DNA of 64,000 bases from an uncultured Pseudomonadota bacterium (GTDB lineage: Bacteria > Pseudomonadota > Gammaproteobacteria > Ga0077536): NCBI GenBank assembly GCA_902597385.1, contig CACJXQ010000006.1, forward strand, positions 1 to 64,000. The letters are read 5' to 3'. A model generated the notes under the pieces. That model had not been told where the DNA came from and ran no database searches. It saw only the letters and a list, made by a program, of their open reading frames with translations. How positions within the stretch are numbered: the stretch's first letter is position 1; each line of letters starts with the position of its first letter. The position numbers and the translations under genes were made by a program. Shown here one piece after another: positions 61,932-64,000 of this stretch.

Positions 61932-62549
61932 TTATATTTTTTGAAAATGACTCATGACAGTCTCTACAGGTAAGACATCTGCATATCTTCTTCCAACATC
62001 TCGAAGGGAATCTTTGTGAGCTTGTTCTTCTTGATCTCCGCAGCATTCCTGAGGGACTATGACCCTAAATCCATAGGAGAAAGCGTCCACTACTGATGCC
62101 CGTACACAGCCGCTAGTAGTGCAACCAGTTATAACCACTGTATCTACTCTTTGTTTCCCTAGATAAGTTAGTAAAGGGGTTTGAAAAAAAATAGAGGGAG
62201 CGCTTTTAGTGAAAATAAAGTCATAGTCTTCCTTGAGAATCCTTGGATCTATTTCAGTTGATTTATGGCCTTTAAAAAAGCTACCGTCATATAGCGATGT
62301 GACTTTCCAGTAGCCCATATCACTTATACCATTCCAAGCCACATTGCAGTTGGCAACAGGTATACTTTTCTCTCTAGCTAACTCTAGAAGATTCTTAGTG
62401 TGTAATACTGCACTGTGAATATGTTCACTTTTGCCCGCGAGATACGAAGGGTCTGTAAAACCCAATTGAAAGTCTACTACGAGAACAGCAGTCTGCTCCC
62501 CAAAACCAATTTCGCCACCGCCGTAACCAGCTGTTTTGTAATTATCCAT
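61932..62549 (-). CDS. Isochorismatase-family cysteine hydrolase (N-carbamoylsarcosine amidase-like)
   Basis: TAVLVVDFQLGFTDP; VVITGCTTSGCVRASVVDAFSYGFRVIVPQECCGD. Confidence 0.92.
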   Translation of the reverse strand: MDNYKTAGYGGGEIGFGEQTAVLVVDFQLGFTDPSYLAGKSEHIHSAVLHTKNLLELAREKSIPVANCNVAWNGISDMGYWKVTSLYDGSFFKGHKSTEIDPRILKEDYDFIFTKSAPSIFFQTPLLTYLGKQRVDTVVITGCTTSGCVRASVVDAFSYGFRVIVPQECCGDQEEQAHKDSLRDVGRRYADVLPVETVMSHFQKI

Positions 62550-62550
62550 G

Positions 62551-63066
62551 TTATGTTCCTGGTAAATTATCTAGGACTTCTAGGAGATCCTTTCCCGCTG
62601 AAACTGGATTCACTTTTTTAATGATCTTTAAGATAACTCCTTCTCCGTCAATGATAAATGTCGTTCTAGAAGCGAATTTTCCAAATTTTAAAACGCCATA
62701 TTTCGTGGCAGTGTTGCCATCCGGATCACTTAAGATTGGAAATTTCGCTCGATTTGCCTCAGCGAACTTTGTCAATATTTCATATTCATCTGTGCTTGCC
62801 ATAAATAAGGCTATTTCGTGACTTTCTAGAGCGTTTTCACTTTCCCGAAGTGATTTACACTCAGCAGTTCATCCGCCTGTGAATGCTTTGGGGAACCATG
62901 CCAAGACCACAGTACGCCCCTTGTAGTCCTTCAGGGCATGGAATTTACCGTCCGAGCCCATCAAATTAAATTCAGGGGCTAAATCTCCCTCCGTAACTGC
63001 GTAAGCGGATTGGAGCGACATCAAAAGAGTAAGTAATAAGATTCGCATGGTGTTAAGTGGAAGCAT
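62551..63066 (-). CDS. Predicted selenocysteine-containing peroxiredoxin (single in-frame TGA at 62869-62871 read as Sec), with signal peptide
   Basis: Continuous frame across the TGA: MRILLLTLLMSLQSAYAVTEGDLAPEFNLMGSDGKFHALKDYKGRTVVLAWFPKAFTGG-U-TAECKSLRESENALESHEIALFMASTDEYEILTKFAEANRAKFPILSDPDGNTATKYGVLKFGKFASRTTFIIDGEGVILKIIKKVNPVSAGKDLLEVLDNLPGT. The ORF track splits this into 62869-63066 and 62551-62802. Likely start ATG 63048. Confidence 0.9.
62829..62862 (-). promoter_or_regulatory. Bacterial SECIS-like stem-loop immediately downstream of the in-frame TGA
   Basis: GAGUGU-AAA-UCACUU-CGGGA-AAGUGA-AA-ACGCUC: 6-bp lower stem (one G-U), small internal loop, 6-bp upper stem, 5-nt apical loop with G at position 2; apical loop begins 22 nt after the UGA. 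Confidence 0.82.
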
Positions 63067-63091: not shown

Positions 63092-64000
63092 TCATTGTTT
63101 AACAGGTTGTCTCATGGTCACCCACTCTTCGGCAGAAGTCGGGTGGATGCCGATGGTCTCATCAAACATGGATTTTGTCGCCCCGGCCTTCATTGCTATC
63201 GCTATTCCTTGAAGGCTCTCTCCCGCGTCAGCTCCCACCATATGGGCGCCAACAACTAAATCGTTTTCGCTATCTACGACAAGTTTCATAAGCGTCCTCT
63301 CGTGATTTCCGGTTAGAGTGTGTTTTAAGGGCTTAAATTCGGAAATGAATATTTTAATTTCCTTGTGTTTTTCTCTTGCTTCTTCTTCAGTGAGACCTAC
63401 CGTGGCAAGGTTGGGGAGGCTGAAAACCGCGCTAGGAATCAAATTGTAGTCTACTCGCTTTTTGCCGTCACCGAATAGGTAGGATACCACTGTCATCGCT
63501 TCTGCTAGAGCGACTGGAGTCAGGTTGACTCTGTCTGTTACGTCTCCAATAGCCAACACAGTATCTATGTTAGTCCTATAATTTTCGTCTACTGCGATAG
63601 CATTCTTTGAGTCTACTTTTATACCTAATTTTTCCAGTCCTAAGTTTTCAGTCAAAGGTGTTCTGCCGGTGGCATACATGATTAAATCACAAGATACTTC
63701 TTCCCCAGAAGAAAAGTTAGCAGTTAACCTGTCATTTTGTTTGGTTATCTCGTTTATTGAGCAGTTAAATTGCAAGTCAATTCCAGATTCTCTTATTTGA
63801 TTAGCGAGAAAGGTTCTCGCATCGAAGTCGAATCCCCGTAGAAACAAATCCCCTCGATACAGTTGAGAAGTATCACAACCTAGACCGTTAAAAATCGAAG
63901 CGAACTCAACGGCTATATAGCCGCCACCGACAACGAGTACTTTCTGTGGCAGTTCTTTTAGGTAGAATGCTTCATCAGAACTAATTACATGTTCGCAACC
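63092..64000 (-). CDS. gor: Glutathione-disulfide reductase, C-terminal part (gene continues beyond window end)
   Basis: [75 protein letters not shown]; frame remains open to 64000. Confidence 0.93.

Follow-up and report, generated by a model that had tools for sequence, protein, structure and literature searches.

The window analysed here is a 64,000-nt stretch of contig CACJXQ010000006.1 from an uncultured gammaproteobacterium. Near its end are two minus-strand ORFs (62869–63066 and 62551–62802) that share a frame, with one TGA and 22 sense codons between them (Table 1). When the TGA is read as selenocysteine (Sec, U), the joined frame encodes a single 171-residue protein with U66 in WFPKAFTGG[U]TAECKSLRES. 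Residues 27–146 of this read-through product match Pfam AhpC-TSA (101 bits), and it also matches Pfam Redoxin. It keeps the P-x3-T-x2-[U/C] peroxidase motif, with TxxU present as T63-G-G-U66, as well as the conserved Arg134. The preliminary description of this locus had joined the two ORFs into one complete peroxiredoxin, and both its coordinates and the full-length AhpC-TSA product were borne out exactly. It had also expected a gene caller to miss the gene, and the standard ORF list does give two separate ORFs.

Table 1. Features at the peroxiredoxin locus and its neighbours (positions in the window).
Feature	Position	Strand	Basis
prxU-type gene, predicted exported peroxiredoxin, 171 aa, one Sec codon	62551..63066	(-)	Read-through frame and AhpC-TSA match
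Alternative start (ATG) of the prxU-type gene	63048	(-)	
Signal peptide region MRILLLTLLMSLQSAYA, predicted export	62998..63048	(-)	Hydrophobic N-terminus, AxA-type site, by eye
TGA, predicted Sec codon (U66), peroxidatic position FPKAFTGG[U]TAEC	62869..62871	(-)	Homolog codon column
Cys70 codon, candidate resolving residue, U-x3-C	62857..62859	(-)	Cys at +4 in 102/102 clade members
SECIS-type hairpin, stem TCACTT/AAGTGA, 5-nt apical loop CGGGA	62837..62853	(-)	Covariation, folds
gor, glutathione-disulfide reductase, directly upstream, continuing past the window end (451 aa in L026)	63092..64000	(-)	NF004776, 594 bits (cut-off 480)
Isochorismatase/amidohydrolase-like hydrolase, beginning 1 nt past the peroxiredoxin stop	61932..62549	(-)	

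Two ORFs are also what would be seen if the TGA were a nonsense codon in a Cys peroxiredoxin of the usual kind, the locus being a pseudogene or carrying a sequencing error. The homologs argue against this. At the U66 column, 93 of the 110 homologs fetched have TGA and 17 have TGC or TGT, with no other codon, in agreement with the earlier proposal that the TGA occupies the catalytic Cys position. The Cys loci divide into eight ordinary PrxQ genes (TPGC) and nine that fall within a clade with the motif FPKAFTGG[U/C]TxxC. The TGA homologs represent several phyla and many assemblies made independently. When 278 relatives were searched with stops read through, full-length orthologs carrying exactly one TGA each (47–91% identical) came from 19 more genomes of the family, and a search of named genomes gave many more homologs, mostly from Acidobacteriota and Planctomycetota MAGs, in a set that partly overlaps that of the relatives. 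An exact DNA pattern matched at least 3 of 369 Gammaproteobacteria searched, which is a lower bound because such a pattern is blind to variant forms. Between the window and a 91% identical relative, pN/pS was 0.026/0.29 before the TGA and 0.041/0.19 after it, and other sequence pairs gave a similar pattern or had too few changes; judged from these comparisons, both halves of the gene are under purifying selection. As only TGA or Cys codons occur at the U66 column, a chance nonsense mutation is excluded; the preliminary description had thought one unlikely, given the codon affected and the conservation of the two halves. With the TGA repeated at 93 homologous loci, selection acting on either side of it and a covarying hairpin downstream (see below), we rejected the pseudogene reading and give it almost no credence.

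The preliminary description had proposed looking for the Sec machinery in the rest of the genome. Most of what was sought is there: selA (563 bits), selB (376 bits) and a tRNA-Sec with anticodon TCA lie on one contig (G000:C10:24855-29499). On this contig, selA and selB share a 4-nt overlap, and a beta-lactamase-like gene separates selB from the tRNA-Sec (L023 8820-13502). SelD had no match in the assembly, which is 72.7% complete, using TIGR00476 and PF00586. The same assembly yielded no gene with an AIRS domain at all (PurM, PurL or SelD), and SelD was over the cut-off in both genomes of the same genus, so its absence is probably a matter of incompleteness. Many of the SelD matches in the family (e.g., G012, G018 and G001) fall within open frames some 750 aa long, which suggests fusions resembling the Ndh-SelD fusions reportedly seen in Global Ocean Sampling (GOS) data. 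SelA was found in 18 of the 20 family genomes that bear the TGA, the two without it being 62% and 87% complete. Outside the family, it was over the cut-off in 18/20 genomes with the Sec form and 5/9 with the Cys form. Gammaproteobacterial Cys forms with KAFS[R/K]G[C]TIEC occur at two loci (L047 and L049) in genomes without SelA (G204 and G057), likely reflecting a switch between Sec and Cys together with loss of the Sec machinery.

The read-through is clearly conserved, as it would also be if the TGA were read as Trp or Cys through a changed code or a suppressor tRNA. However, the genome encodes selA, selB and tRNA-Sec(TCA), Cys is the sole alternative residue at the U66 column, the UGA is followed by a SECIS-type hairpin, and selA, selB and gor of the same genome are normal under table 11. 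On the strength of the homologs and the machinery we rejected such altered decoding, which we consider very improbable.

The preliminary description had proposed a SECIS search of the locus, and a covarying SECIS-like element was found just downstream of the UGA across 73 distinct TGA sequences. In these, nucleotides 17–23 after the U of UGA pair with nucleotides 29–35 (with the pairing partner shifted by 3 in sequences with a longer loop). The pairs were kept in 489 of 511 cases, compared to 319 ± 10.5 (maximum 345) in 500 codon-shuffled sets; the structure was read from the same sequences on which it was tested, an objection that is largely answered by this codon null and by an offset control, in which mean pairing was 6.70/7 at this offset versus 2.4–4.75 at every other in-frame offset. 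At least six of the seven pairs were kept in 71/73 sequences, and compensatory changes occur on both sides of the stem (e.g., G-C to A-T, or C-G to T-A or G-C). The Cys homologs mostly lack the hairpin, with only 2/7 reaching six pairs. In the window, the hairpin has six pairs and spans 18–34 nt after the U of UGA; taken alone it is not significant, since 11.6% of codon shuffles are as stable, and the case for a SECIS element thus rests on the covariation. An Rfam search found no match to a SECIS model at the locus. Of the refuting conditions given in the preliminary description, all those examined spoke for Sec. Overall, we consider it very likely that the locus is one intact selenoprotein gene, with Sec inserted into an exported peroxiredoxin, and we put this forward as a high-confidence prediction in which the insertion of Sec is itself inferred.

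The AlphaFold model of the window protein has a peroxiredoxin fold (pLDDT 92.4), and its best matches among solved structures were Bcp1 (3drn, the best), another BCP and the 1-Cys enzyme AhpE. An N-terminus resembling a signal peptide and ending in AxA-type sites was recognized by eye, without a signal-peptide program, in nearly all homologs; the product is therefore predicted to be exported, as first proposed, and probably works in the periplasm. The UxxxC pattern named in the preliminary description proved to be invariant: Cys occurs at +4 in 93/93 Sec and 9/9 Cys members of the clade, and in 89/93 Sec members there is no other Cys in the region covered (from 38 residues before U66 to about 94 after C70). 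As this Cys is invariant and normally the sole other one, and as the +5 Cys of Corynebacterium glutamicum PrxQ is a proven resolving residue (PMC5811025), Cys70 presents itself as the candidate to resolve Sec66 from a shifted position, a role that we think it probably has. In the model, U66 and C70 both lie in helix 64–75, so a bond between them would require local unfolding. This geometry, the presence of AhpE among the structural neighbours and the adjacency of gor, which is compatible with a glutathione-resolved cycle, would also fit a Sec-containing, exported protein that works as a thiol:disulfide oxidoreductase or as a peroxidase of the one-Sec (1-Cys) type, with an external thiol resolving the Sec and Cys70 serving another role. 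We consider this unlikely, given that Cys70 is invariant in all 102 clade members, Sec and Cys forms alike, and that the P-x3-T-x2-[U/C] motif and Arg134 are retained. The gene product is most likely an exported, 2-Cys-like seleno-peroxidase.

The linkage to gor noted in the preliminary description was present over a narrower range than the gene itself. Of 20 genomes of the gammaproteobacterial family, 14 have gor directly upstream on the same strand, and a MATE-type transporter gene often comes next in the opposite orientation; the flanks fetched outside this family yielded no gor. The neighbours outside the gor-linked family genomes were varied, as judged by ORF layout, and among the fetched loci the closest relative alone also has the hydrolase next to the peroxiredoxin gene. 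Having gor as a neighbour hints at a link of the peroxiredoxin to glutathione, but Gor itself is cytosolic.

In the mechanism that we propose, SelB with Sec-tRNA would decode the in-frame UGA as Sec, guided by the hairpin just downstream, a step that we infer from the machinery, the hairpin covariation and the homologs. The product, a peroxiredoxin resembling BCP/PrxQ, would carry a signal peptide at its N-terminus and probably be periplasmic. Sec66 would attack H2O2 or an organic hydroperoxide and become a selenenic acid, which Cys70, one helical turn away, would resolve once helix alpha-2 had unfolded locally, giving an intramolecular selenenylsulfide; an external thiol system would presumably then reduce it. 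The locus suggests that uncultured gammaproteobacteria of the ocean, and many Acidobacteriota as well, defend themselves against peroxide with selenium-based enzymes targeted to the periplasm, whose genes standard gene callers split or label as pseudogenes. The invariant UxxxC also offers a simple test of which positions are possible for a resolving thiol in peroxiredoxins.

Sec-containing peroxiredoxins with TxxU (COG1225/PF00578) are an established family, known since 2001–2005 and abundant in ocean metagenomes (PMC1088965, PMC2398784, PMC13188914): a 2001 report described one in Eubacterium acidaminophilum (cited in PMC13188914), and later counts were 43 in the Sargasso Sea (PMC1088965) and 253 in GOS data (PMC2398784). 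As the window gene has TxxU, it is known in kind, and the preliminary description of it as a new instance holds only for its branch: no separate account seems to exist of a secreted branch with an unusually placed second Cys, the Sec-peroxiredoxin passages considered from these three papers mentioning neither UxxxC nor export. The clade shares with known members, such as E. acidaminophilum PrxU and the Sargasso Sea and GOS sets, the fold, the peroxidatic Sec, T-x-x-U and marine occurrence, and as far as those passages go is set apart from them by its signal peptide, GG rather than PG before U, and the invariant UxxxC. Some members of the clade may well be among the Sargasso Sea and GOS sequences already. 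The window protein scores only 47.8 bits against the NCBIfam PrxU model (NF040737, cut-off 270) and 87 bits against PrxQ (cut-off 140), and no model in the NCBIfam release reaches its cut-off. A second peroxiredoxin gene with one in-frame TGA, TPG[U]TIEGK, on the minus strand of the same genome (G000:C23:15260-15688, L024 4255-4701; 117 bits to PrxQ), is likely a classical TxxU Sec-peroxiredoxin without the usual +5 Cys. Peroxiredoxin-like thiol:disulfide oxidoreductase selenoproteins share PF00578, Sec and marine occurrence with the window protein and differ in motif (UxxC versus TxxUxxxC); a third TGA gene, RGHW[U]PYC (220 aa, minus strand, G000:C1:154787-155449, L025 4788-5450), resembles these. 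By sequence and fold, PrxQ/BCP is the closest family, with SLR[E/D] after the active site aligning without gaps, yet Ala occupies +4 and Cys +5 in all eight PrxQ comparators, whereas the clade has Cys at +4 in 102/102 and never at +5. The clade received 100/100 support against the PrxQ outgroup and is mainly Sec (75 of 84 tree rows, with 9 Cys), with about five Sec/Cys state changes over all 92 rows of a tree whose deeper order is poorly resolved. To our knowledge, a resolving Cys at +4 in the same helix is not used by characterised peroxiredoxins, and we see about an even chance that the FPKAFTGG[U]TxxC clade forms a subfamily of its own, exported and mostly using Sec, that resolves through this Cys by an intrahelical selenenylsulfide.
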